From NCBI RefSeq assembly GCF_025465545.1, contig NZ_JAODMK010000050.1, forward strand, positions 1 to 39,014: a stretch of DNA of 39,014 bases, given 5' to 3'. This document shows positions 9,560 through 25,895 of the stretch, piece after piece (position 1 is the stretch's first letter; each line of letters begins with the position of its first letter). This DNA is from Naasia sp. (GTDB taxonomy: Bacteria; Actinomycetota; Actinomycetes; Actinomycetales; Microbacteriaceae). A model generated the notes under the pieces. That model did no database searches, was not told where the DNA came from, and saw only the letters and a program-made list of their open reading frames with translations. Position numbers and translations under genes: made by a program.

Positions 9560-10891
9560 TCAGAGGGAGTCGAGGGCCTCGTCGAGGATCGCGAGGCCGC
9601 GCTCCGCCTCGTCCCTGGTGATCACGCAGGGCGGAACCACATGGATGCGGTTGTCCGCGCTGAAGGGCAGCATCCCCCGCTGCAGCAGGCCCGCCTTGAT
9701 CGCGCCGATCGCAGAGGGGCCGAGCGGCTGCCGGGTGTCGCGGTCCTCGACCAGGTCGAGGGCCCAGAAGACCCCGACGCCGCGCACCTCGCCGATCACC
9801 TCGTGCTTCTCGGCGAGCGCCCGCAGTCCGGGCCCGAGCACGTCGCGACCGATGGTCGTCGCGTTCTCCAGGATGCCCTCGTCGCTCATCGCGTCGAGCG
9901 CCGCCACGATGGAGGCCATCGCCAGCGGATGCCCGGAGTAGGTGAGCCCACCGGGGAACACCCGCTCGTCGAACTCCTCGGCGATCCACGGCGGGAGGAT
10001 GACGCCGCCGGCCGGAACGTAGCCGGAGTTGACGCCCTTCGCGAAGGTGATGAGGTCGGGCACGATGCCGTCCGGATTCACCCCGGCGTTCTGGAAGGCG
10101 AACCAGTCGCCCGTGCGGCCGAAGCCGGCCATGACCTCGTCGAAGATGAGCACGATCTTGTACTTGTCGGCGAGCGCCCGAACGCCGGTGAGGTAGCCGG
10201 GCGGCGGCACGAGCACGCCGGCGGTGCCGGGGATCGTCTCGATCAGGATCGCCGCGATCGATGCCGCGCCCTCGGCCTGGATGACGCGCTCGAGCGAGTG
10301 CAGCGCGCGCTCGGTCTCCTGCTCCACGCTCTGCGACCAGAACTCGCTGCGGTAGGCGAACGGCCCGAAGAAGTGCACGTGTCCGCGCGAGTACTCGTTC
10401 GGCACGCGGCGCCAGTCACCGGTGGCCGAGATGGCAGCGCCGGTGTTGCCGTGGTAGGAGCGGTACATCGAGAGCACCTTGTCGCGGCCGGTCACGAGGC
10501 GCGCCAGCCGGATGGCGTTCTCGTTGGCGTCCGCTCCGCCGTTGGTGAAGAAGACCTTGCTGAACTCGCCGCCGGCGCGCGCCAGGATCCGGCCGGCCGC
10601 CTCGCCGCGGGCCAGGTTGGCGTGGGCGGGCGCGACGGTGGTCAGCAGGTCCGCCTGCGCCTTGATGCCGGCGATCACCCTGGGGTGCTGGTGCCCGATG
10701 TTCACGTTCACGAGCTGGCTGGCGAAGTCGAGGTAGCGGTTGCCGTCCGCGTCCCACACTGTGCTGCCGAGGCCGCCCGCGATGGCCATGGGCTTCAGCG
10801 CGCCCTGCGCGGACCAGGAGTGGAAGACGTGGGCGCGGTCGAGGTCGAGCGTGCGCTGTCCCTCGTCGGTGTCGGTGGGCGCGAGAGTCAT
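9560..10891 (-). CDS. Class III (PLP) aminotransferase, probably beta-alanine type
   Basis: 443-residue PLP-dependent aminotransferase. The class III signature L-I-F-D-E-V-M-A-G-F-G-R-T-G, with the Asp that binds the PLP ring nitrogen, is followed by I-T-F-A-K-G-V-N-S-G-Y with the PLP Lys. S-Y-H-G-N-T is the usual phosphate/substrate loop. The ATG at 10891 is chosen because AAGGA lies 8 bases upstream; the frame stays open further upstream without a matching ribosome site. As last gene of the nitrilase-hydantoinase-LLM operon it would receive beta-alanine (or beta-aminoisobutyrate) and give malonate semialdehyde with pyruvate or 2-oxoglutarate as acceptor. The class is sure; the substrate is inferred from neighbours only. 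Confidence 0.88.
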   Translation of the reverse strand: MTLAPTDTDEGQRTLDLDRAHVFHSWSAQGALKPMAIAGGLGSTVWDADGNRYLDFASQLVNVNIGHQHPRVIAGIKAQADLLTTVAPAHANLARGEAAGRILARAGGEFSKVFFTNGGADANENAIRLARLVTGRDKVLSMYRSYHGNTGAAISATGDWRRVPNEYSRGHVHFFGPFAYRSEFWSQSVEQETERALHSLERVIQAEGAASIAAILIETIPGTAGVLVPPPGYLTGVRALADKYKIVLIFDEVMAGFGRTGDWFAFQNAGVNPDGIVPDLITFAKGVNSGYVPAGGVILPPWIAEEFDERVFPGGLTYSGHPLAMASIVAALDAMSDEGILENATTIGRDVLGPGLRALAEKHEVIGEVRGVGVFWALDLVEDRDTRQPLGPSAIGAIKAGLLQRGMLPFSADNRIHVVPPCVITRDEAERGLAILDEALDSL

Positions 10892-11134
10892 GGTGCATGT
10901 CCTTGGTCGGTTCGAGGTGCGGGGACCGGGAGGGGGATTCTCCCGGTCCGTCGCGGGGAAAGTGCAGGAGTGCTCGTTGCCGCCCTCGTTGAGGGTGACC
11001 TCGATCGGAGAGAAGTCGGTTCCGATCACATCATCGCCCTCGTCGATGAGCTCCTTCAGCGCCGTGTCGAGTACTCGTTGGAGGATGCCGTCGCGGCGCC
11101 GACAGGAATCGACACAGCACGCTCTTGCCGCTCA
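10892..11134 (-). other. 240-base spacer with a possible broken small gene
   Basis: This spacer inside a tight operon is longer than its neighbours (25 and 88 bases). An ATG overlaps the upstream LLM stop as ATGA (11135-11132) and reads M-S-G-K-S-V-L-C-R-F-L-S. After about 12 codons the plausible reading moves to another frame, with L-D-T-A-L-K-E-L-I-D-E-G-D-D-V-I-G-T-D-F. That frame runs without a stop into the aminotransferase. One extra base near 11095-11105 would explain this. I recognise no family. It may be a frameshifted small protein of the operon, or chance. Confidence 0.3.
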
Positions 11135-12148
11135 TGCCCTGGCCACGATGGTGTCGCGCAGCGCCGGGATGACGGTCTCTCCGTACACCCGGAGGGTCTC
11201 CTCCTTGTTGTCGTGCTGGAGGTAGCCGGCGAACTGGTGCACGCCGAGCGCCTTCAGGCGCTCGAGCTTCTCGATGTGCTGCTCGGCGGTGCCGAGGAGG
11301 CAGAAGCGGTCGACGATCTCGTCCGGCACGAACTGGGTGTGCGTGTTGCCCGCCCGGCCGTGCTCGTTGTAGTCGTACGCCTGGCGGCCCGCGATGTAGT
11401 CGGTGAGCGCCTGCGGGACGGCTCCCGCAGTGCCGTACTTGGCGACGATGTCGGCGACGTGGTTGCCGACCATCCCGCCGAACCAGCGGCACTGGTCGCG
11501 CATGTGCTCCCAGTCGTCGCCGATGTAGAAGGGCGCGGCCACGCAGAACTTGACCGACATCGGGTCGCGTCCCGCCTTCTCCGCGGCGTCGCGGACGGTG
11601 CCGATCATCCACTCGGCGATGTCGACGTCGCCGCACTGCAGGATGAACCCGTCGCCCACCTCGCCGGCGAGCTTGAGGGCGAGCGGTCCGTAGGCGGCCA
11701 CCCAGACCTCGAGCTCGCTGCCGACGCTCCACGGGAACCGCAGGGTGGCGCCGTTGTACTCGACCGAACGGGAGTTGGCCAGCTCCCGGATCACGTGCAC
11801 CGACTCCCGGAGCTCCTTGAGGGTCGTGGGCTTGCCGTTGGCCACCCGCACGGCCGAGTCGCCCCGGCCGATGCCGCACACGGTCCGGTTGCCGTACATC
11901 TCGTTGAGGGTCGCGAACACGCTGGCGGTGACGGTCCAGTCGCGGGTGGCGGGGTTGGTGACGAACGGCCCGACCTTGATCCGCCGCGTCTCCGCGAGGA
12001 TCTGGCTGTAGATCACATACGGCTCCTGCCAGAGCACGTGGGAGTCGAAGGTCCAGACGTGGCTGAAGCCGTGCTGCTCCGCGAGCTTGGCGAGCCCGAC
12101 CGTCCGCGAGGCGGGTGGATTGGTCTGCAGAACCGCTCCGAACTCCAT
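11132..12148 (-). CDS. LLM-class flavin/F420-dependent oxidoreductase of the pyrimidine operon
   Basis: 338-residue luciferase-like (LLM) TIM-barrel oxidoreductase. It shows the family pattern: T-F-D-S-H-V-L-W-Q-E near residue 33, G-P-F-V-T-N-P-A-T-R-D (strand 3 and cofactor rim), C-G-I-G-R-G-D-S-A-V-R and V-W-V-A-A-Y-G-P-L-A-L. It fits the group I know as TIGR03842 (CPS_4081 type), distinct from the RutA uracil monooxygenase, though this needs a profile search. It sits between hydantoinase and aminotransferase in one operon, where a uracil/thymine reductase is needed; with F420 genes within 15 kb, F420H2-dependent reduction of the pyrimidine ring is my inference. An FMN-dependent role cannot be excluded. 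Ribosome site GAGAGGGAGAGG precedes the ATG. Confidence 0.85.
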   Translation of the reverse strand: MEFGAVLQTNPPASRTVGLAKLAEQHGFSHVWTFDSHVLWQEPYVIYSQILAETRRIKVGPFVTNPATRDWTVTASVFATLNEMYGNRTVCGIGRGDSAVRVANGKPTTLKELRESVHVIRELANSRSVEYNGATLRFPWSVGSELEVWVAAYGPLALKLAGEVGDGFILQCGDVDIAEWMIGTVRDAAEKAGRDPMSVKFCVAAPFYIGDDWEHMRDQCRWFGGMVGNHVADIVAKYGTAGAVPQALTDYIAGRQAYDYNEHGRAGNTHTQFVPDEIVDRFCLLGTAEQHIEKLERLKALGVHQFAGYLQHDNKEETLRVYGETVIPALRDTIVARA

Positions 12149-12162
12149 CAGCCTCTCCCTCT

Positions 12163-12226
12163 CAAGTGCCCGTTGCGGCGGGAAGTGCCCGCTGTATCGG
12201 TCACTTCGCGCCGGAACGGGCCATTC
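12163..12226. repeat. Long imperfect hairpin between hydantoinase and LLM genes (element B)
   Basis: Left arm 12163-12190 and right arm 12199-12226 are complementary at 22 of 28 positions with an 8-base loop, GCTGTATC. It lies wholly between the hydantoinase stop (12237) and the LLM ribosome site. No U-tract follows, so it is more likely an RNA-stabilising or processing hairpin, or a REP-like mobile element, than a terminator. A 9-base direct repeat AAGTGCCCG occurs at 12164 and 12183. Confidence 0.7.
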
Positions 12227-12236
12227 ACAGTCGGCA

Positions 12237-13682
12237 TCAGATGAGGTACTGGGAGAGGCCGCGCTTGATGTACTTGCCGTCCCCCTTCGCGCCGAGGTAG
12301 GAGCCGCCGTCCACCACGACCTTGCCGCGGGAGATCACGGTGTCGACGTGGCCGTCGATCTCGAAGCCCTCCCATGCCGAGTAGTCCATGTTCATGTGGT
12401 GGGTGCGGCCAGTCTGCTCGCCGCTCGCGTCGATGCCGAGTCCGATCGAGGTGTGCCCGTTCGGGTCGTAGACGACGACGTCGCCGTCGGCTCCCGGCTG
12501 GATCACGCCCTTCCTGCCGTACATGCCGAACATCCGGGCCGGCGTGGTGGAGGTGATCTCCACCCAGCGCGACAGCGAGATCTTCCCGTCGACGACGCCC
12601 TGGTAGAGCAGGTCCATGCGGTGCTCGACGCTGCCGATGCCGTTGGGGATCTTCGAGAAGTCGCCGACCCCCATGTCCTTCTGGCCCTTCATGCAGAACG
12701 GGCAGTGGTCGGTGGAGACCATCTGGATGTCGTTGGTGCGCAGGCTCTGCCACATGTGGTGCTGATGGCCCTCCGCCCGCGAGCGGAGAGGGGTGGAGCA
12801 CACCCACTTCGCGCCCTCGAAGCCGGGCGCCCCGAGCTGCTCCTCGAGCGAGAGGTAGAGGTACTGCGGACAGGTCTCGCCGAACACGTTCTGGCCGTTG
12901 TCGCGGGCGGCCGCGATCTGCTCGACCGCCTGCTTGGCCGACACGTGCACAACATAGAGCGGCGCACCGGTGAGGTTGGCCAGCATGATCGCGCGGTGGG
13001 TGGCCTCCTCCTCCGCCTGCCAGGGACGGGTGAGCCCGTGGTAGTACGGCGACGTGTTGCCGGCGGCGAGCGCCTGCTGCACGAGCACGTCGATGACGGC
13101 GCCGTTCTCGGCGTGCATCATCATCATCGCGCCGTTCTCCGCGCCCTTCTGGAAGGCCCGGAGGATCTGTCCGTCGTCGGACAGGAAGACGCCCTTGTAG
13201 GCCATGAAGAGCTTGAAGCTCGTCACTCCCTCGGCGATGAGCTCGTCCATCGCCGAGAGCGAGCTGTCCTGCACGTCGGACAGGATCTGGTGGAAGCCGT
13301 AGTCGATGGCGCAGTTGCCCGCCGCCTTCTGCTGCCACAGGTTGTACTGCTCGACCACGTTCTGGTCCGGGTACTGCACGACGAAGTCGACGATGCTCGT
13401 GGTGCCGCCCCAGGCCGCGGCCCGGGTGCCGGTCTCGAAGGTGTCGCTGGCGTTGGTGCCCCCGAACGGCATCTCCATGTGGGTGTGCGCGTCGACTCCG
13501 CCGGGGATCACGTACTTCCCCGCCGCGTCGATCACGGCGTCGACGTTCGCCTCGAGGTCGAAGCCGAGGAGCGTCGAACCGGGCGCGAGGACCGCCGCGA
13601 TGGTCTCCCCCTCGATCAGGACGTCGGCCTGGGCGGTGCCGGTCGCGTTGACGACCGTGCCGTTCTTGATCAGAGTCTTCAT
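12237..13682 (-). CDS. hydA: Dihydropyrimidinase / hydantoinase
   Basis: 481-residue cyclic amidohydrolase that opens the ring of 5,6-dihydrouracil (to N-carbamoyl-beta-alanine), dihydrothymine or hydantoins. Metal ligands are visible: D-A-H-T-H-M near residue 60, the carboxylated Lys in V-T-S-F-K-L-F-M-A-Y-K-G near 150, H-V-S-A-K near 183, and S-T-D-H-C-P-F with the catalytic Asp near 315. Length and motif spacing match bacterial D-hydantoinase/dihydropyrimidinase. It starts 25 bases after the nitrilase stop with GGAG upstream. The neighbouring N-carbamoyl hydrolase and aminotransferase favour dihydropyrimidinase over a stand-alone hydantoinase. Very sure of family. Confidence 0.95.
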   Translation of the reverse strand: MKTLIKNGTVVNATGTAQADVLIEGETIAAVLAPGSTLLGFDLEANVDAVIDAAGKYVIPGGVDAHTHMEMPFGGTNASDTFETGTRAAAWGGTTSIVDFVVQYPDQNVVEQYNLWQQKAAGNCAIDYGFHQILSDVQDSSLSAMDELIAEGVTSFKLFMAYKGVFLSDDGQILRAFQKGAENGAMMMMHAENGAVIDVLVQQALAAGNTSPYYHGLTRPWQAEEEATHRAIMLANLTGAPLYVVHVSAKQAVEQIAAARDNGQNVFGETCPQYLYLSLEEQLGAPGFEGAKWVCSTPLRSRAEGHQHHMWQSLRTNDIQMVSTDHCPFCMKGQKDMGVGDFSKIPNGIGSVEHRMDLLYQGVVDGKISLSRWVEITSTTPARMFGMYGRKGVIQPGADGDVVVYDPNGHTSIGLGIDASGEQTGRTHHMNMDYSAWEGFEIDGHVDTVISRGKVVVDGGSYLGAKGDGKYIKRGLSQYLI

Positions 13683-13707
13683 TTTCCGGTGCTCCGTTGC
13701 GCAGGAT

Positions 13708-14556
13708 TCAGGGGGCGGTGATGGCGACGTAGGAATCGGGGCGACGGTCCCGGTAGAACTGCCAGTCGTCGCGCATCTGCTGCACCATGTCGAGGTCGAG
13801 ATCCCGGATCAGGATCTCCTCGTGCTCGCCCGAGCCGCGCTCCCCCACGAAGTTGCCGCGCGGGTCGATGACCTGGCTCGTGCCGTAGAAGTCGACGGCC
13901 AGCTCGCCGTATTCGTTGTCCTCGCGTCCCACGCGGTTCGGCTGCAGGACGAAGTACCCGTTGGCGACGGCGGCCGCAGGTCCCTCGACCTCCCACAGCC
14001 GGTTGGACAGACCCGGCTTCGTGGCGTTCGGGTTGAACACCATGTGGGCGCCGTTCAGCCCGAGCTCGCGCCACCCCTCCGGGAAGTGGCGGTCGTAGCA
14101 GATGTACATGCCGACCTTGCCCACTGCGGTGTCGAACACCGGGTAGCCGAGGTTGCCCGGTCGGAAGTAGAACTTCTCCCAGAACCGGTCGAGGTTCGGG
14201 ATGTGGTGCTTGCGGTACTTGCCCAGGGTCGTGCCGTCGGCGTCCACGAGGACCGAGGTGTTGTAGTAGACGCCGGTGATGTCCTCCTCGTAGATCGGCA
14301 GGATCATCACGACGCCGAGCTCCTTCGCGAGCGCGGCGAAGCGCTGCACGATGGGCCCGTCGGCGGGCTCGGCGTAGCGGTAGTACTTCTTGTCCTCGGT
14401 GATGCCGAAGTAGGGACCGTAGAACAGCTCCTGGAAGCAGATGATCTGCGCCCCCTGCGCTGCCGCATCCCGAGCGAAGCCCTCGTGCTTGTCGAGCATC
14501 GACTCCTTGTCGCCGGTCCAGGTGGTCTGGGTGATCGCAGCACGAACGACGGTCAT
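13708..14556 (-). CDS. Nitrilase-family N-carbamoyl-beta-alanine amidohydrolase (beta-ureidopropionase)
   Basis: 282-residue carbon-nitrogen hydrolase of the nitrilase superfamily. The Glu-Lys-Cys triad is clear: F-Q-E-L-F-Y-G, K-Y-R-K-H-H-I-P and M-Y-I-C-Y-D-R-H-F-P-E-G-W-R. The set F-Q-E-L-F..., K-H-H-I-P-N and Y-D-R-H-F-P-E is typical of beta-ureidopropionase rather than of nitrile hydrolases. It would release beta-alanine, CO2 and NH3 from N-carbamoyl-beta-alanine made by the next gene. First gene of the operon; GAGGAG precedes the ATG by 6 bases. The activity fits both motifs and context, but N-carbamoyl-D-amino acid hydrolase remains possible. Confidence 0.88.
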   Translation of the reverse strand: MTVVRAAITQTTWTGDKESMLDKHEGFARDAAAQGAQIICFQELFYGPYFGITEDKKYYRYAEPADGPIVQRFAALAKELGVVMILPIYEEDITGVYYNTSVLVDADGTTLGKYRKHHIPNLDRFWEKFYFRPGNLGYPVFDTAVGKVGMYICYDRHFPEGWRELGLNGAHMVFNPNATKPGLSNRLWEVEGPAAAVANGYFVLQPNRVGREDNEYGELAVDFYGTSQVIDPRGNFVGERGSGEHEEILIRDLDLDMVQQMRDDWQFYRDRRPDSYVAITAP

Positions 14557-14930: not shown

Positions 14931-15914
14931 ATGCACCTGCGCCTCGCCTTCCCCCTCCTTCCGCTCACCGCCGTCGCAGTGCTCGCCGGCTGCGCGAGCC
15001 CCGGAGCGGGAGCAGCACCGACTCCCCCCGCCACGACCGCCGCTGCTGCGGTGGCCGTGGACAACTGCGGGACGCCCGTCACCTTCCCTGCCGCACCCTC
15101 CCGCGTGCTCACGATCAAGTCGACCTCCACCGAGATGCTGCTCGCGCTCGGCCTGGGCGATCGCATCGTCGGCACCGCCTTCCAGGACGGCCCGCTGCCC
15201 GAGAACCTGGCCGCCGACGGAGCTTCGCTCGTCTCGGTCGCCGATCAGGTGCCCACGGAGGAGGCGGTGCTCGGGCTCGAGCCGGACCTCGTCTACGCGG
15301 GCTGGGAGTCGAACTTCTCGGCAGACGGGGCCGGCGAGCGCGACGAGCTCCAGTCTCTCGGCATCGCCACTTATGTGTCGCCCGCGGCATGCAAGGAGCC
15401 CGAGTACAAGCCGAAGAAGCTCACCTGGGACTCGATCTTCGGCGAGATCCGCGAAGTAGGTGACATCTTCCGCGTGCCGGAGCAGGCGGAGAAGGTGGTG
15501 GCCGCGCAGCAGGCGGAGCTCGCCACGGTCGCTCCGGACGCCGAGGGGCGGACCGCCCTCTGGTGGTCCTCCGGAGACGACACCCCCTACGTCGGCGCCG
15601 GGACGGGCGCGCCCCAGCTGATCCTCGACACCCTCGGGCTCACCAACATCGCCGGGGATGTGCAGGACACCTGGACGCCCCTCGGCTGGGAGTCGATCGT
15701 GGCGGCGGACCCCGACGTGATCGTCCTGGTCGACGCCTCGTGGAACACGGCCGACAGCAAGATCGCGACGCTGCAGACGGATCCGGCGACGAAAAACCTC
15801 TCGGCGGTCAAGAACTCCCGCTACCTTCTGGTGCCGTTCCCGGCGAGCGAGGCCGGAGTGCGGAGCGCGGACGCGACCGTCGACCTGGCCGCCCAGCTGG
15901 CAGACCTGTCCTGA
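14931..15914 (+). CDS. ABC transporter substrate-binding lipoprotein (putative Fo/F420-0 transporter)
   Basis: 327-residue lipoprotein: signal peptide ending L-A-G-C (lipobox, Cys near residue 21), then a linker of Ala/Thr/Pro. The mature part is a class III (BtuF/FecB-like) binding protein: P-S-R-V-L-T-I-K-S-T-S-T-E-M-L-L-A-L-G-L near the front, L-E-P-D-L-V-Y-A-G-W in the middle and A-A-D-P-D-V-I-V-L-V in the second lobe. It would sit on the outer face of the membrane and hand a ligand to the next two gene products. Relatives beside F420 genes have been named putative F420-0 binding proteins by phylogenetic profiling. Vitamin B12 or siderophore remains possible; the cofD coupling favours a deazaflavin. 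Confidence 0.82.
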   Translation: MHLRLAFPLLPLTAVAVLAGCASPGAGAAPTPPATTAAAAVAVDNCGTPVTFPAAPSRVLTIKSTSTEMLLALGLGDRIVGTAFQDGPLPENLAADGASLVSVADQVPTEEAVLGLEPDLVYAGWESNFSADGAGERDELQSLGIATYVSPAACKEPEYKPKKLTWDSIFGEIREVGDIFRVPEQAEKVVAAQQAELATVAPDAEGRTALWWSSGDDTPYVGAGTGAPQLILDTLGLTNIAGDVQDTWTPLGWESIVAADPDVIVLVDASWNTADSKIATLQTDPATKNLSAVKNSRYLLVPFPASEAGVRSADATVDLAAQLADLS

Positions 15915-15924
15915 GGCCCCTGCA

Positions 15925-17001
15925 GTGACGGCGACGGAAGAGGCGGCGGGACCGGGAGTCACCGGCGCGACGCGGGCGCTCGCGGCGCTCCGCGGCTCAC
16001 GGCTCACCCTCGCCGGCGTCGGCCTGCTCGGCGTCGTGCTCCTCGGCGCCTCGATCGCCGTCGCGGTCACGATCGGCCCCGCCGACATCGGGGTCGGCGA
16101 GGTGTTCCGGTCGCTCTCGTCCCACCTCGGCATCGGGTCCACTCCGCTCAGCGCACTGCGCGACGGCATCGTGTGGGAGCTCCGCCTGCCCCGGCTGCTC
16201 ACCGCCGCCGCGGTCGGCGCCGGCCTCGCCCTGAGCGGCGCCGTGATGCAGGCGATCACCCGCAACGCCCTCGCCGATCCGTACCTCCTCGGCCTCTCCT
16301 CGGGCGCCTCGCTCGGGGCCGTCGCCGTGCTGCTGCTCGGCGTGGGGCTGCTGCTCCCCGTCGCCGCCTTCCTGGGGGCGATGCTGGCGCTGCTGGCAAC
16401 GCTCGCCCTGGCGCGGTCCGCGGGGGCGATCACGCCCGCCCGGACGGTGCTCGCCGGGGTCGCGGTGTCCTCGCTCGCCGCCGCGATCACCAGCCTCGTG
16501 ATCTTCTGGACGGCGACCGGCGACTCCTACCGTGAGATCCTCGGCTGGCTCCTCGGCTCGCTCGCCGGCGCTCGCTGGCCCGCCGTGGCCATCGCGGTCG
16601 TCGCGCTCGCCGTGGTCGGTGTGCCGCTCCTCGCCGGAGCACGGGTGCTCGACGCCTTCGCGTTCGGCGACACGTCCGCGGCCGCGCTCGGGGTGAACGT
16701 CCCCGGGGTGCGCTGGACACTTCTCGGCGGCACCGCGCTGCTCACGGGCGCGATGGTGTCGGTCAGCGGGTCCATCGGCTTCGTCGGCCTGGTGCTCCCG
16801 CATGCCGTGCGGCTGCTCACCGGGCCGGGACATCGCGCACTGCTGCCGCTGTCCGCCCTCGCCGGGGCCATCTTCCTGGTCTGGGCGGACACCGCGGCGC
16901 GGAGCCTCTTCGATCCGCGCGAGCTGCCCGTCGGCGTGGTCACCGCGATCCTCGGCGCCCCCGTGTTCGCCCTTCTCCTCGCTCGTCGGACCCGCACGTG
17001 A
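15925..17001 (+). CDS. BtuC/FecCD-type ABC transporter permease (putative Fo/F420-0 transporter)
   Basis: 358-residue membrane protein with about ten hydrophobic segments. The FecCD/BtuC signature R-L-P-R-L-L-T-A-A-A-V-G-A-G-L-A-L-S-G and A-D-P-Y-L-L-G-L-S-S-G-A-S-L-G are present, as is G-S-I-G-F-V-G-L-V-L-P-H, the loop that meets the ATPase. Starts at GTG 15925, 10 bases after the binding-protein stop; its last codons overlap the ATPase start by 4 bases (GTGA). The fold is an importer type, so uptake rather than export is the expected direction. Confidence 0.88.
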   Translation: MTATEEAAGPGVTGATRALAALRGSRLTLAGVGLLGVVLLGASIAVAVTIGPADIGVGEVFRSLSSHLGIGSTPLSALRDGIVWELRLPRLLTAAAVGAGLALSGAVMQAITRNALADPYLLGLSSGASLGAVAVLLLGVGLLLPVAAFLGAMLALLATLALARSAGAITPARTVLAGVAVSSLAAAITSLVIFWTATGDSYREILGWLLGSLAGARWPAVAIAVVALAVVGVPLLAGARVLDAFAFGDTSAAALGVNVPGVRWTLLGGTALLTGAMVSVSGSIGFVGLVLPHAVRLLTGPGHRALLPLSALAGAIFLVWADTAARSLFDPRELPVGVVTAILGAPVFALLLARRTRT

Positions 17002-17807
17002 GCGACCTCTCCGGCGAGCGGGTGACCCTCACCGCGGGCGGTCGGCTGCTGCTCGACGGGATAGACGTGGCCGTCCGCGCCGGCAGCGTCACGGCGCTGA
17101 TCGGCCCGAACGGCGCCGGGAAGTCCACCCTGCTGCGCGCCCTCGCCGCCCTCGAGGCGCCCGCCTCCGGCACCGTGCGGTTCGGCACGGTGGACGCGGC
17201 AACTCTCAGCGGCGTCCGGCGGGCCCGCATCGCGGCCCTCGTCGAACAGGACGCGAACACCGACCTCGACCTCCGGGTGGAGGACGTCGTCGCCCTCGGC
17301 CGCCTGCCGCACGAGGGCGTCTGGGGCGGGCCCCTGAAGGAGCGCGAGCGCATCGTCGAGGAGAGCCTCGACGCGGTCGGCATGAGCGGATTCCGCGGTC
17401 GCCGCGTCCCCTCGCTGTCCGGCGGCGAGCGCCAGCGCGTGCTGCTCGCCAAGGCGCTCGCCCAGCGCACGCCGCTGCTCCTCCTGGACGAGCCGACCAA
17501 TCACCTCGACATCGCCGCGCAGCTGTCGACGCTCGGGCTGCTCCGTCGGCTGGCCGCGGGCGGAGCGACCGTCCTCGCCGCCCTGCACGACCTCGGGCTC
17601 GCCGCCGCGTTCGCCGACGACGTCGTGGTGCTCGCGGGCGGCCGGGTGGCGGCATCCGGTCCGGTCGCCTCGACCCTCACTCCCGAGCTGATCCGCGACG
17701 TCTACGACGTGGACGCGGTGATCCTTCCGCACCCCACGAGCGGGCGGCCGGTGCTCGCCCTGGACCTGCCCGAAATCGCCGGGGCCGAGCGGGAGGGAAG
17801 CCGATGA
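16998..17807 (+). CDS. ABC transporter ATP-binding protein (putative Fo/F420-0 transporter)
   Basis: 269-residue ABC ATPase of the iron/B12 importer class. Walker A G-P-N-G-A-G-K-S-T is near residue 36, the Q-loop Gln in V-E-Q-D-A-N near 79, the signature L-S-G-G-E-R-Q-R-V near 138, Walker B L-L-L-L-D-E-P-T-N-H-L-D near 160, and the switch His in L-H-D-L-G-L near 195. All catalytic residues are intact. Overlaps the permease by 4 bases and cofD by 4 bases (ATGA), so the three transporter genes and cofD form one translationally coupled unit. Confidence 0.9.
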   Translation: MSDLSGERVTLTAGGRLLLDGIDVAVRAGSVTALIGPNGAGKSTLLRALAALEAPASGTVRFGTVDAATLSGVRRARIAALVEQDANTDLDLRVEDVVALGRLPHEGVWGGPLKERERIVEESLDAVGMSGFRGRRVPSLSGGERQRVLLAKALAQRTPLLLLDEPTNHLDIAAQLSTLGLLRRLAAGGATVLAALHDLGLAAAFADDVVVLAGGRVAASGPVASTLTPELIRDVYDVDAVILPHPTSGRPVLALDLPEIAGAEREGSR

Positions 17808-18802
17808 CGCGCATCACCGTGCTCGCGGGCGGGGTGGGCGGCGCCAAGTTCCTCCGCGGGCTGCGGACCGAGGCCGCGCGGCGCTGGCCGGACGGGGCAG
17901 GCGGCACCAGCGCTGAGCTCACGGCCGTGGTGAACACAGGAGACGACGCGTGGCTCGCAGGTCTCCGCATCACCCCCGACCTCGACTCGATCCTCTACGC
18001 CCTTGCGGGAGTCAACGACGAGCAGCGCGGCTGGGGGCGGGCCGGTGAGAGCGAGCGGGTCAGCGCGGAGCTGCGCGCCTACGGGGTGGGCTGGCCCTGG
18101 TTCACGCTCGGCGACCTCGATCTGGGCACCCACATCGCGCGCACCTCGTGGCTCCGGGAGGGCGCACCGCTCGGCGAGGTCGTCACCCGGCTCTCCTCCC
18201 GGTGGCCGCTCGGAGTGCGCCTGCTGCCGATGACGGAGCAGGAGGTCGAGACCCAGGTGGAGGTCGAGGACGGAGGCCGCACTCGCCTGATGCACTTCCA
18301 GGAGTGGTGGACGCGCTACCGGGCCTCGCTGCCCGCGCTCCGGTTCGTCCAGCCGGGCGTCGATCGCGCGGAAGCGGCCCCCGGAGTGATCGAGGCGATC
18401 GCGTCCGCCGACGTCGTCGTGTTCGCGCCGTCGAATCCCGTCGTCTCGATCGGCACCATCCTCGCGATCCCGTCGCTGGCCAGAGCGGTGCGCGACACCC
18501 GCGCTCCCGTCGTCGGCGTGTCCCCGATCGTCGGCGGCGCTCCGGTGCGCGGCATGGCCGACGCCTGCCTTGCCGCCATCGGCGTCGAGACCGGCGCCGC
18601 AGCGGTCGCCCTCCACTACGGCTCGCGCGCGTCCGGCGGCCTCCTCGACGGCTGGCTCATGGACACAGTGGACGAGAGCGAGGCGGAGAGCATCAGGGGC
18701 GCCGGCATCGCCGCGGCCGCCCGCCCGCTCCTGATGACGGACCTGCCCGCGAGCGCCGCGATCGCCGGCGCCGCTCTCGACCTGGCCGACTCCCTGCGCT
18801 AG
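17804..18802 (+). CDS. cofD: 2-phospho-L-lactate (or phosphoenolpyruvate) transferase CofD/FbiA
   Basis: 332-residue enzyme of coenzyme F420 biosynthesis. It moves the phospholactyl (or enolpyruvyl-phosphate) group from the guanosine diphosphate carrier made by CofC onto Fo, giving F420-0 or dehydro-F420-0. The start I-T-V-L-A-G-G-V-G-G-A-K-F-L-R-G and V-V-N-T-G-D-D-A-W-L-A-G-L are the nucleotide and Fo binding motifs of the family; F-A-P-S-N-P-V-V-S-I-G and S-P-I-V-G-G-A-P-V-R-G are also diagnostic. ATG at 17804 overlaps the ATPase stop. Its stop shares the bases CTAG (18799-18802) with the stop of convergent cofC. Very sure. Confidence 0.96.
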   Translation: MTRITVLAGGVGGAKFLRGLRTEAARRWPDGAGGTSAELTAVVNTGDDAWLAGLRITPDLDSILYALAGVNDEQRGWGRAGESERVSAELRAYGVGWPWFTLGDLDLGTHIARTSWLREGAPLGEVVTRLSSRWPLGVRLLPMTEQEVETQVEVEDGGRTRLMHFQEWWTRYRASLPALRFVQPGVDRAEAAPGVIEAIASADVVVFAPSNPVVSIGTILAIPSLARAVRDTRAPVVGVSPIVGGAPVRGMADACLAAIGVETGAAAVALHYGSRASGGLLDGWLMDTVDESEAESIRGAGIAAAARPLLMTDLPASAAIAGAALDLADSLR

Positions 18803-19437
18803 CCCGATTGCCCCGTCCTCGGTCCCAGGGCCTGCAGGGCACGGGCGGTGAACAGGCCCACGCCGCGCTGCCGGGCGGCGCCGAGATCCGCGAGGGTGTC
18901 CACATCCCGCCTCAGCCCCGAGACATCCCGGAGAGCGAGCTCGACGTACCCCGCTCGCCGGTGAGCCAACCGCGAGCCTGTGCCGAAGCGGGGCCGGTGC
19001 TGCACGCCCGGTCGCGCGGTGCTGAGCACCGTGCCGCGACCGTCGGCGTCGGGGACGATCGCGCGCGGGACGCGGCCCGCCGCGGTCAGCGCCGCGGCGA
19101 GCTGCTCGGGCCGCAGAGCCGGCAGGTCACCGAGCAGGAACGCGACGCCGAGCGCCCGGGAGCGGACTGCCGCTCCACCCGCGGCCAGGGCGGGGAGCAG
19201 TCCCGAGGAGGCGGGCTCGGTCACCACTCCGGCGCCGAGGTCGCGGAAGCGCAGCGCGTCGGCCCGGGGAGTCACGACGACCACCTCCCGCACGCCCGCG
19301 GCGGCCAGCGCCGCGCGCACCGCATCGAGGGCGAACGCGAGGGCCAGCTCCTCTCGCAGCGAGGGCGCGACGTCCAACCGCGACTTGCCCTGCGCACGGC
19401 CCTTCACGGGCACGACGACGGCCCAGTCGAGGCTCAC
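18799..19437 (-). CDS. cofC: 2-phospho-L-lactate / phosphoenolpyruvate guanylyltransferase CofC/FbiD
   Basis: 212-residue nucleotidyltransferase that activates 2-phospholactate or, as shown for mycobacterial FbiD, phosphoenolpyruvate with GTP for the CofD reaction. V-V-V-P-V-K-G-R-A-Q-G-K-S-R-L near the start is the family GTP/metal motif; F-L-L-G-D-L-P-A-L holds the metal Asp near residue 107; R-F-G-T-G-S-R follows later. The GTG at 19437 is chosen since the core begins at once; it overlaps the stop of a 27-codon upstream ORF as GTGA. It converges on cofD with shared stop bases, so no terminator fits between them. Very sure. Confidence 0.94.
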   Translation of the reverse strand: MSLDWAVVVPVKGRAQGKSRLDVAPSLREELALAFALDAVRAALAAAGVREVVVVTPRADALRFRDLGAGVVTEPASSGLLPALAAGGAAVRSRALGVAFLLGDLPALRPEQLAAALTAAGRVPRAIVPDADGRGTVLSTARPGVQHRPRFGTGSRLAHRRAGYVELALRDVSGLRRDVDTLADLGAARQRGVGLFTARALQALGPRTGQSG

Positions 19438-23079: not shown

Positions 23080-24102
23080 CTAGGCCATCGCGCGCAGCCG
23101 CGGGGCCAGGTCGCGCTCGAAGAGTTCCAGGAAGCGGCGCTGGTCGTCGCCCGGACCGTGGAACACCAGGTGGTTGAAGCCCCAGCGGATGTACTGGCCG
23201 ATCCGCTCGGCCACGTCGTCGGGGTCGCTGCCCACGATCCAGCGGGACGCGATCTGCTCGATCGGCAGCGCATCCGCGGCGCGCTCCATCTGCACCGGGT
23301 CGGTGATGGAATGCTTCTCCTCCGCGCTCAGCGACAGCGGCGACCAGAAGCGGGTGTTCTCCAGCGCCGCGTCGGCATCCGTGTCGTAGCTGAGCTTGAT
23401 CTCGATCATCCGGTCGAGGCTCTCGGGGTCGCGGCCCGCGGCCGCCGCGCCTTCCGCTACCGCGGGCAGGAGCTTGTCGACGTAGAGCTCTGCGCCCTTC
23501 CCCGAGGTGCAGATGAACCCGTCCCCCGCACGGCCCGCATACTTGGCGACCACCGGCCCGCCCGCCGCGATGTAGACGGGCACGCCGCCGTCGGGCCGGT
23601 CATAGATGCTCGCATCGTGGGTGCTGTAGAACTCGCCGTCGAAGTTGACGCGGTCGCCGCTCCACAGTTCGCGGATCAGCCGCACCGACTCCCGGAGCCG
23701 CGCGAACCGCTCCTTGAACTCCGGCCACTCCTGCTCGCCGGGGCCACGGAAGCCGGTGGCGATCTCGTTGAGCGCCTCACCGGTCCCGACGCCGAGCAGG
23801 ACCCGCCCCGGATAGAGCACGCCGAGCGTGGCGAAGGCCTGCGCGATGACGGCGGGGTTGTAGCGGAAGGTGGGGGTGAGCACCGAGGTGCCGAGCTGGA
23901 TCGTCGAGGTCCGCTCCCCCACCGCGGTCAGCCAGGCGAGCGCGAACGGGGCGTGCCCGCCCGTGTGCCGCCACGGCTGGAAGTGGTCACTGACGGTGGC
24001 GCTCTCGAAGCCGTGCTGCTCGGCCGCGACCGCGAACTCGACGAGGTCGCGGGGGCCGAACTGCTCGGCGGAGGCCTTGTAGCCGAGTTTGAGGGGAAGC
24101 AT
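23080..24102 (-). CDS. fgd: F420-dependent glucose-6-phosphate dehydrogenase
   Basis: 340-residue LLM-class enzyme that oxidises glucose-6-phosphate and reduces F420 to F420H2, the main source of reduced F420 in many actinobacteria. It is extremely like Mycobacterium tuberculosis FGD1: [12 protein letters not shown] at the start, catalytic His40, Trp44 and Glu109 at the same numbers ([16 protein letters not shown]), and the three phosphate-binding residues in T-S-G-K-G, E-K-H-S-I and S-R-W-I-V. A short extra stretch of about four residues near 120 is the main difference. Last gene of the LLM-cofE-fgd operon, 22 bases after cofE. Very sure. Confidence 0.96.
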
Positions 24103-24124: not shown

Positions 24125-24895
24125 TCAGGGGGCGGCGGAGGCGCTGCCGTCGCGGAATCCGGCGGCGTAGGCCTCGTCGCTGCCGGTGCGGAACATGTCC
24201 TGCTCGGCGGGCCGCACGAGCGCCCGGGCGCCGGGCGCGTCGAGCGAGGTCACCAGCCGGCCGAGGCCGCGCACCACGGCCACCGGCAGCGAGGCCGCCT
24301 TGCCCTTGACGAGGTCCGCGGCGGAGGCGATCTCGTCGGCGACCGCGGGCACGGTCACATCCAGTGCCCTGCCGCCGGCGTCGGCCGTGCCGCGCAGATC
24401 GTCGACCACGAGCACTCCGGCTGCACCGATGGCCGCGTCGGTCTGCCCCACCCGCCACGGCCGGCCCAGGGTGTCGCTGACGATCACCCCGATCCGAGTC
24501 CCCCGGTCCGCGAAGGCCCGGGCGATGGCCCGGGCCGAGGCGTCGGGGTCGACGGGGAGCAGGAGCACGTAGCCCTCCGGCACGTTGCTCGAGTCGACAC
24601 CGGCCGCCGCCTGCACGATGCCGAGCGGGTTCTCCACGATGCGGGTGACGCCGCCGGGATGCCGGCGGCTGGCGACCACCCGCACGGTCTCGGCGGTGAT
24701 GGCGTCCTCCCGGTCGGTCGCCGCGATCAGGCGACCCTCCGCCTTGGACACGATCTTGCTGCTGACCACCAGGATGTCGCCGTCCTGCAGATCACCGACC
24801 CAGCCGACGAGGAGGGAGGGCAGGTGGTCGCCGGCGGAGACCTCCGGAATGCCGGGGACCGCCCACACGGAGAAGCCGCCGTCTGCCGCGGTCAT
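24125..24895 (-). CDS. cofE: F420-0:gamma-glutamyl ligase CofE (single-domain FbiB)
   Basis: 256-residue ligase that adds the gamma-linked glutamate tail to F420-0 with GTP. Family marks: A-V-P-G-I-P-E-V near the start, [18 protein letters not shown] near residue 40, D-P-D-A-S-A-R near 125, [14 protein letters not shown] near 150. The frame is open far upstream, but the ATG at 24895, one base after the preceding stop, gives the proper N-terminus. The protein ends at [11 protein letters not shown] plus a short tail, exactly where actinobacterial FbiB usually goes on into an FMN nitroreductase-like domain; that domain is missing here. Confidence 0.94.
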
Positions 24896-24896
24896 C

Positions 24897-25895
24897 TCAG
24901 CGCACCAGCCGGGGCAGCACATCGCGCGCGAAGACGTCGATCCACTCGCGCTGGTTCCTGCCGGCGTTGTGCAGGTAGATGCGGTCCGCGCCGAGATCCG
25001 CGTAGCGCTGGATGGCGGCCCGGTGCACGTCCGGGTCTGCGGAGATGACCATCCGTCCCTCGAAGTCCTCGATCCGCACGAGCTTGGCGAGCTGCTCGAA
25101 CTCGAACGGGGAGCGGATGTCGCTCTTGGGGAAGCGCATCCCGCCGTTGGGCCACTCCCGCAGCGCGTTGGCGCGCGCCTCCTCGTCGGTCGGCGCCCAG
25201 GACAGGTGCAGCTGGAGCACCTTAGCGGTGGGGGCGGTCCTGCCCGACTCGCGGACCCCGTCGTCGAACCGTGAGAAGAGGCCGGCGATCTTCTCCACCG
25301 GGGCACCCACCGTGATCAGCCCGTCCGCCTGCCGGCCCGCCCGGCGGGCGGTCACGGGGCCTGCGGTCGCGATGAGCACGGGCGGGGGGACCTCGGGCAT
25401 CGTCCAGAGCCGGGTGGACTCGAGGCGGAAGTGGGGACCGGAGTGCTTCACATCCCGGCCGGCCCGGGAGGCCTGGAAGAGCTTGGTGATGAGGTCGACG
25501 GCCTCGAACATCCGGTTGATCCGCTCGGCCGCCTCCGGCCAGTATTGGCCCACGATGTGCTCGTTGAGGGCCTCGCCCGAGCCGATGCCCAGCCAGTGCC
25601 GCCCCGGATACATCGCGGCGAGCGTGGCGGAGGCCTGAGCGACCATCGCCGGATGCCAGCGGAAGGTGGGCGCGGTGACGCCGGGACCGAAGTCGCCGGT
25701 GGTGCGCTCGGCGACGGCGGTCAGCACGTTCCAGACGAAGGAGCTCTGCCCCTGCGCGGGGACCCACGGCTGGAAGTGGTCGGCGGCCATCACGCCGGAG
25801 AAGCCGCGGCTCTCGGCATAGGCGGCGAGCGCGACCGCCTCGGCCGGGGCGAACCGCTCGAGCATCGCCGCATAGCCGACGGAGAAGACGCTCAC
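24897..25895 (-). CDS. LLM-class F420-dependent oxidoreductase, G6PDH-like family
   Basis: 332-residue TIM-barrel oxidoreductase related to Fgd: A-A-D-H-F-Q-P-W near residue 37, [14 protein letters not shown], and [10 protein letters not shown] with the Glu equivalent to Glu109. It lacks the Fgd phosphate-binding Lys motifs, so glucose-6-phosphate is not the likely substrate. It fits the families I know as TIGR03557 or TIGR03885; I cannot tell which without a search, and the second may use FMN rather than F420. First gene of the operon; cofE begins one base after its stop. A hairpin lies just upstream. GTG start at 25895 with an AG-rich ribosome site. Confidence 0.85.

Follow-up and report, generated by a model that had tools for sequence, protein, structure and literature searches.

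The window analysed here, a stretch of 39,014 nucleotides from the actinobacterium Naasia sp. (NZ_JAODMK010000050.1, contig C23 of genome G000, which comprises 2.76 Mb in 53 contigs and is 99% complete), carries a four-gene operon for what appears to be reductive pyrimidine degradation. Its first step would be catalysed by a luciferase-like oxidoreductase (LLM) of the TIGR03842 family, which would reduce uracil or thymine with F420H2, the reduced form of a rare cofactor, and has no relationship to the classical first enzyme. Judging from sequence comparison, we put the probability of this reading at about 0.84. In textbooks, reductive pyrimidine breakdown starts with dihydropyrimidine dehydrogenase; what is new is that the first enzyme of an otherwise known pathway has probably been replaced by a probable F420 enzyme, as gene neighbourhoods in many bacteria suggest. 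The original prediction, made from the window, had described the four genes next to F420 genes and had proposed that the LLM reduces uracil or thymine. The former observation is confirmed and the latter interpretation is supported by independent comparative evidence, from which we infer activity, cofactor and substrate.

Results

The operon and the proposed pathway

All four open reading frames predicted as one leftward operon are found at their positions, on the minus strand and in a row. The most upstream (13708..14556) encodes a CN-hydrolase carbamoylase (CN_hydrolase, 215 bits), a probable beta-ureidopropionase (BUP). No specific carbamoylase model was passed, the closest NCBIfam model being N-carbamoylputrescine amidase (aguB; 241 bits, under the cut-off of 410). 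Its best solved relatives are N-carbamoylputrescine amidohydrolase (2e-53), CG3027-PA (5e-51), which we take to be the fly beta-alanine synthase, and beta-ureidopropionase (5e-47). A D-hydantoinase/D-carbamoylase system for amino acids was considered and rejected, solved D-carbamoylases matching the CN-hydrolase at 4e-29 as against 5e-47 for beta-ureidopropionase.

The second gene (12237..13682, minus strand) encodes a dihydropyrimidinase/D-hydantoinase (HYD; TIGR02033, 553 bits, cut-off 393) with D-hydantoinase (5e-141) and dihydropyrimidinase (9e-140) as best solved relatives. It is followed by the LLM gene (11132..12148, minus strand; TIGR03842, 588 bits, cut-off 295). The last gene (9560..10891, minus strand) encodes a class III aminotransferase (AMT), probably acting on beta-alanine or 3-aminoisobutyrate (PRK06062, 720 bits, cut-off 472, scored on the longer frame 9560-11029). 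We take ATG 10891 (443 aa) as its start instead of the mechanically assigned GTG 11029, which leaves intergenic gaps of 25, 88 and 240 bp. Its best solved relative is taurine:2-oxoglutarate aminotransferase (1e-105), taurine being a sulfonate analogue of beta-alanine.

In the proposed pathway, the LLM would reduce uracil or thymine with F420H2 to the dihydro base. From what is known of the other families, the dihydropyrimidinase would then open the dihydrouracil ring, the CN-hydrolase would strip off the carbamoyl group, leaving beta-alanine (or 3-aminoisobutyrate when thymine is degraded), and the aminotransferase would yield malonate (or methylmalonate) semialdehyde. The F420H2 could be supplied by the product of fgd, also present in the window.

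Linkage of the LLM with pyrimidine genes

By name, the closest relatives of the LLM are actinobacterial, chiefly from Microbacteriaceae, among the best 80 of at least 584 confirmed relatives. A dihydropyrimidinase gene adjoins the LLM gene in all 80 of these nearest loci. The order BUP-HYD-LLM, in a row and on one strand, is found in 77, each with the CN-hydrolase upstream; the remaining three have no BUP, two of them (L053 and L089) lying near a contig start. An aminotransferase gene follows the LLM gene on the same strand in 57 loci. Other neighbours are genes for an NMT1-type binding protein of an ATP-binding cassette (ABC) importer (57 loci), methylmalonate-semialdehyde dehydrogenase (MMSDH; 28) and an NCS1 permease (5). 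In Nocardia (L094), for example, the operon continues into genes for a TIGR01722 semialdehyde dehydrogenase (658 bits) and a PF02133 permease. Set A1 takes in the window and 17 of the 25 loci L005-L029, omitting L012 (own), L013, L014, L018, L020, L024, L026 and L028.

Since the nearest 80 loci belong to close kin, we also read neighbourhoods across the phylum. From 149 genomes drawn evenly over Actinomycetota, 29 (the window genome included) have TIGR03842 above cut-off; in the 28 others one LLM locus each was read, over some 9 kb on either side as far as the contig reaches. Second above-cut-off matches in G130 (C52) and G106 (C26, partial) stand outside this count. Dihydropyrimidinase was found near the LLM in 21 of the 28 and a carbamoylase in 26, belonging to either of two unrelated families (CN-hydrolase 14, M20 type 12). 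An aminotransferase is present in 18, an NCS1 symporter in 14, an NMT1-type ABC importer in eight and methylmalonate-semialdehyde dehydrogenase in seven. The order of genes varies: BUP-HYD-LLM-ABC-AMT (L030), BUP-HYD-LLM-AMT-MMSDH-NCS1 (L094), BUP-HYD-MMSDH-LLM-ABC (L119), HYD-AMT-M20-NCS1-LLM (L118), ABC-BUP-AMT-HYD-LLM (L122) and LLM-BUP-AMT-HYD-MMSDH (L142). The same functions have thus been reassembled repeatedly, with two unrelated carbamoylases swapped, which points to a shared pathway and not to one inherited block.

A further sample consisted of 60 relatives, within which both TIGR03842 and cofE come and go inside one family. Dihydropyrimidinase exceeds its cut-off in 23 of these genomes, namely in all 22 that have TIGR03842 and in G196 (Fisher p 2e-15, uncorrected for kinship). 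The match in G196, a genome with dihydropyrimidinase and no TIGR03842, stops 3 bp before the contig end. In all 22 TIGR03842 genomes a dihydropyrimidinase lies within 4 kb of the LLM. An extra one, away from the LLM, is present in G149, and a weaker one (350 bits, below cut-off) in G204, which has no cofE.

Two other features of these loci were noted. In 49 of the 80 nearest loci (e.g. L030:6261-7679), a divergent gene of the GntR/MocR type (GntR plus class I/II aminotransferase domain) stands upstream of the operon. Its product is possibly a pathway regulator; in the window, that place is taken by the importer's binding-protein gene. In Microlunatus flavus (L101:16367-18216), overlapping genes for a PF02133 permease and a PF00383 deaminase lie downstream of the operon, and the two could provide cytosine uptake and deamination feeding uracil. 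As a PF00383 deaminase gene beside an NCS1 permease gene occurs in only one of the 80 loci, we give it little weight.

Association with F420 genes

The prediction that cofC, cofD, cofE and fgd accompany the operon stands, all four passing their model cut-offs. Divergent from the operon lies a cassette for a putative F420-0 (or FO) importer (14931..17807, plus strand), consisting of binding protein (TIGR03868, 453 bits, cut-off 392), permease (TIGR03869, 492/437) and ATPase (TIGR03873, 307/372, below cut-off). It is followed by cofD, for 2-phospho-L-lactate transferase (17804..18802, plus strand; TIGR01819, 331 bits, cut-off 257), and cofC, for 2-phospho-L-lactate guanylyltransferase (18799..19437, minus strand; TIGR03552, 134 bits, cut-off 105). 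At 23-25 kb are fgd (23080..24102, minus strand; TIGR03554, 642 bits, cut-off 420) and cofE, for F420-0:L-glutamate ligase (matched part 24188..24871, minus strand; TIGR01916, 224-227 bits, cut-off 181).

The association extends well beyond the window. In the phylum sample, cofE is above cut-off in 28 of 29 TIGR03842 genomes versus 56 of 120 others (Fisher p 2e-7, uncorrected for kinship). Only G119 (220 contigs, 96% complete) departs from this; it shows a partial match to cofH. Among the 60 relatives, cofE is present in all 22 TIGR03842 genomes (above cut-off in 21; below it, at 1.6e-46, in G199) versus 15 of 38 others, and lies within 40 kb of the LLM in 19 of the 22; TIGR03842 occurs in none of the 23 relatives devoid of cofE. 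The original prediction had proposed to look for co-occurrence of the LLM with hydA and F420 genes and had named, as evidence against itself, wide presence of the operon in species without F420 synthesis genes. The first is seen in all 22 TIGR03842 relatives, with cofE and a nearby dihydropyrimidinase; the second was not borne out, since cofE accompanies the family in the proportions just given, in the phylum and among the relatives alike.

Beyond the phylum, plasmid records were covered, of which 14 match at 1e-40; ten of these are plasmids from two Leisingera species. Surroundings were covered for four of the 14 (Streptomyces, Paracoccus, one Leisingera and Variovorax). On the Leisingera aquaemixtae plasmid, one side carries genes for an NCS1 symporter, hydA (614 bits), an M20 hydrolase, an omega-aminotransferase and pntBA; back to back with these, on the divergent side, are cofG-H-D-C-E, npdG and TIGR03842 (506 bits). 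A plasmid of Paracoccus alcaliphilus has cofGHDCE, npdG, TIGR03842 and an ABC importer. In the stretches shown of both plasmids, the LLM is the sole annotated candidate user of F420 besides npdG.

A more distant cluster was seen on a Variovorax plasmid from linuron-contaminated soil (L113:5414-15973). It encodes an LLM 33% identical to that of the window, an amidohydrolase, a CN hydrolase, npdG and cofGHDCE, and may represent the same kind of module directed at a different ring compound.

The window itself holds another LLM gene (24897-25895, minus strand) beside cofE and fgd. Its product passes TIGR03557 (277 bits, cut-off 210) and scores best with TIGR03885 (303 bits, cut-off 399).

Sequence and structure of the LLM

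The match of the LLM to TIGR03842 (F420_CPS_4043) spans residues 2-330 of 338; its Pfam family is Bac_luciferase. An AlphaFold2 model built from 18 sequences has mean pLDDT 85.7, with low values at 37-41 and 237-243. Searched with Foldseek, the model has F420-dependent enzymes in the first 22 PDB rows, which represent several chains of few proteins, methylenetetrahydromethanopterin reductase (Mer) being at the top (8e-24, TM 0.79). Sequence profiles split the families more clearly than fold does, with Mer at 3e-46 versus 1.3e-13 for the best luciferase. By both profile and fold, the LLM therefore sits beside F420-dependent Mer, and this suggests that it too uses F420.

Residues were compared with Mer using the map available for the M. 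jannaschii enzyme (jMer) in PMC11094777. Across 112 LLM sequences (the Variovorax one, L113, excluded), the residue following the cis-peptide, in Mer's column, is V63 in all, a hydrophobic residue as at the non-prolyl cis-peptide position of F420-dependent enzymes of this superfamily. D97, in the column of Mer position D, and Q171, in that of position C (a carboxamide at the end of beta-6), are constant in all 112. For residue 178 of jMer, given as Gln in PMC11094777 and being Asn by count in the aligned chain, only the alignment column was relied on. The LLM thus resembles Mer in fold, in sequence similarity over its full length, in the GPxVTNP motif on the F420 side, in Asp at position D and in the carboxamide of the position C column. 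Mer proper it is not: scores with TIGR03555 (135 bits, cut-off 349) and PRK02271 (139, cut-off 276) stay under the cut-offs and the column of Mer's catalytic Glu6, position A, is never acidic. Conservation in the Mer columns implies that the cofactor side and a ring-binding residue have been kept and Mer's acid has gone. Further residues, W222, F223, N229, H230, R255, Y258, D259, Y260 and H263, are invariant in all 112 LLMs, and our guess is that this block forms the predicted uracil site.

Classical first-step enzymes

The original prediction had pointed to the lack of a classical dihydropyrimidine dehydrogenase in the operon and had named such an enzyme elsewhere in the genome as evidence against itself. 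None was found genome-wide, the best PreA score being 117 bits (cut-off 335). In G000, PF01180 (DHO_dh) matches two complete proteins and a weak fragment (20 bits). The complete ones are a class 2 PyrD (481 bits, cut-off 433) and a class 1B PyrD (321 bits, cut-off 269) that has a PyrK-like gene next to it. The PreA cut-off is passed by none of the 149 phylum genomes, G000 included, and by two of 14 control genomes. In four carriers of the operon, Mycobacterium sp. D16Q13, Nocardia neocaledoniensis, Microlunatus flavus and PHSC20C1, PreA scores at most 49.5 bits. A PreA-profile match at 1e-30 is present in only three of 29 TIGR03842 genomes (G000, G042 and G058).

Discussion

Evidence against the proposed reductase and rival explanations

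Several observations weigh against a uracil reductase using F420H2. HYD is missing from the stretch read at seven of the 28 phylum loci, among them L130 with its contig of 3.4 kb, and in G045 and G141 (3.4 kb contig) neither dihydropyrimidinase nor carbamoylase is near the LLM. The sole carbamoylase found in G031, of the M20 type, is encoded at a distance of 8 kb on the opposite strand, and on the Paracoccus plasmid no hydantoinase or carbamoylase gene lies within 15 kb of the LLM. The 80 nearest loci represent nearest relatives only. TIGR03842 is itself rated only as a hypothetical equivalog. In the fold list, enzymes using flavin mononucleotide (FMN) start at rank 23 (5e-16), close behind the F420 enzymes, and the Glu6 column is occupied by V (94), T (15) or C (3) in the 112 LLMs. 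One model, TIGR02033, covers dihydropyrimidinase and D-hydantoinase and does not separate their substrates, which leaves room for a different cyclic ureide as the ring. CofH has no match in G000 at E 0.001. The bacterium therefore probably takes up FO or F420-0, in keeping with the importer genes next to the operon; the presence of CofC and CofD may mean that FO, and not F420-0, is what it imports. Finally, in the literature searched (without preprints and most subscription journals) we found no report or activity of an F420-dependent uracil reductase in catabolism, and prior publication is possible.

The LLM might be an F420-dependent reductase within the same operon logic, acting on some other cyclic ureide or N-heterocycle that the hydantoinase opens. 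Besides the shared hydantoinase model, this is favoured by the Variovorax LLM, which carries Met in the Q171 column, a hint that relatives act on other substrates, and by an F420 LLM predicted for yanthine in Chloroflexota (PMC12507026). The accompanying genes speak otherwise: the aminotransferase (18 of 28) and methylmalonate-semialdehyde dehydrogenase (7 of 28) fit beta-alanine and 3-aminoisobutyrate, derived from uracil and thymine, and NCS1 symporters of nucleobases are nearby in 14 of 28. We regard this alternative as unlikely. Considerably less probable still is that the LLM is an FMN enzyme, e.g. a RutA-like oxygenase, whose closeness to F420 genes is coincidental. The LLM superfamily does include FMN monooxygenases, RutA among them, and FMN luciferases appear both in the profile search and just behind F420 enzymes in the fold search. 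Yet F420 enzymes are far ahead by profile, the family co-occurs with cofE, and a RutA product would need no dihydropyrimidinase. RutA was also sought directly and rejected: the best TIGR03612 score in the Naasia genome is 85.5 bits (cut-off 498), at another locus, and the LLM is absent from the eight matches at E 0.001.

One could also imagine that uracil is reduced by the class 1B PyrD and its PyrK-like partner on contig C27 and that the LLM does something else. Such a pair does exist, with genes for an amidase and an ABC importer next to it. It nevertheless exceeds the cut-off for dihydroorotate dehydrogenase and fails PreA, a PreA-profile match is rare among TIGR03842 genomes, and a homologue (E 1e-12) occurs in none of the 80 operon loci. 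This candidate was rejected, and we find the explanation scarcely credible.

Relation to known systems

Compared with the reductive pyrimidine degradation (Pyd) pathway, the F420H2-dependent pathway proposed here has the same dihydropyrimidinase, carbamoylase and aminotransferase steps and probably the same intermediates and overall first reaction. The first enzymes differ. A luciferase-like barrel with proposed F420H2 stands in place of an FMN/Fe-S protein of the dihydroorotate dehydrogenase (DHODH) type with another electron donor, NAD(P)H for PydA/PreAT or ferredoxin for clostridial PydAc, the ferredoxin-dependent variant of the classical enzyme described in PMC7332683. Going by the description in PMC12507026, the predicted yanthine reductase of Chloroflexota is similar in that an F420 LLM replaces a DHODH-type reductase before a cyclic amidohydrolase, and different in its purine-derived ring and other partner genes. 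Likewise by description, in PMC10714638, SSGG-03002/NpsU of the mureidomycin/napsamycin clusters is a putative F420/FMN oxidoreductase genetically required to reduce the C5-C6 bond of a uracil moiety; unlike the LLM operon, it serves antibiotic tailoring, and its authors obtained no in vitro activity. The M. smegmatis pyrimidine pathway is incompletely identified according to PMC4617892. A term search of an F420 phylogeny (PMC6279831) did not find the TIGR03842 family, and an F420 review (PMC8498797) mentions neither "uracil" nor "hydantoin".

With clearly less assurance than for the operon itself, we lean towards a wider picture. TIGR03842 may constitute a second, unrelated dihydropyrimidine dehydrogenase that uses F420H2 and supplies the first step missing from pyrimidine catabolism in many Actinomycetota. 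Degrading pyrimidines may also be a main reason why some Alphaproteobacteria carry F420 synthesis. An F420 LLM, a cyclic amidohydrolase and a carbamoylase would then form a reusable module reducing and opening N-heterocycles, uracil here and other rings in Variovorax and Chloroflexota. If this is true, the TIGR03842 LLM would also offer a simple enzymatic route to dihydropyrimidines.

The cluster on contig C27 (L004:7383-17806) merits a brief description of its own. It comprises the class 1B PyrD-like gene and its PyrK-like partner, an AtzE-like amidase, an ABC importer, a TcuA-like flavoprotein and an ornithine-cyclodeaminase-like gene, and it is catabolic-looking, in a genome already having a class 2 PyrD.

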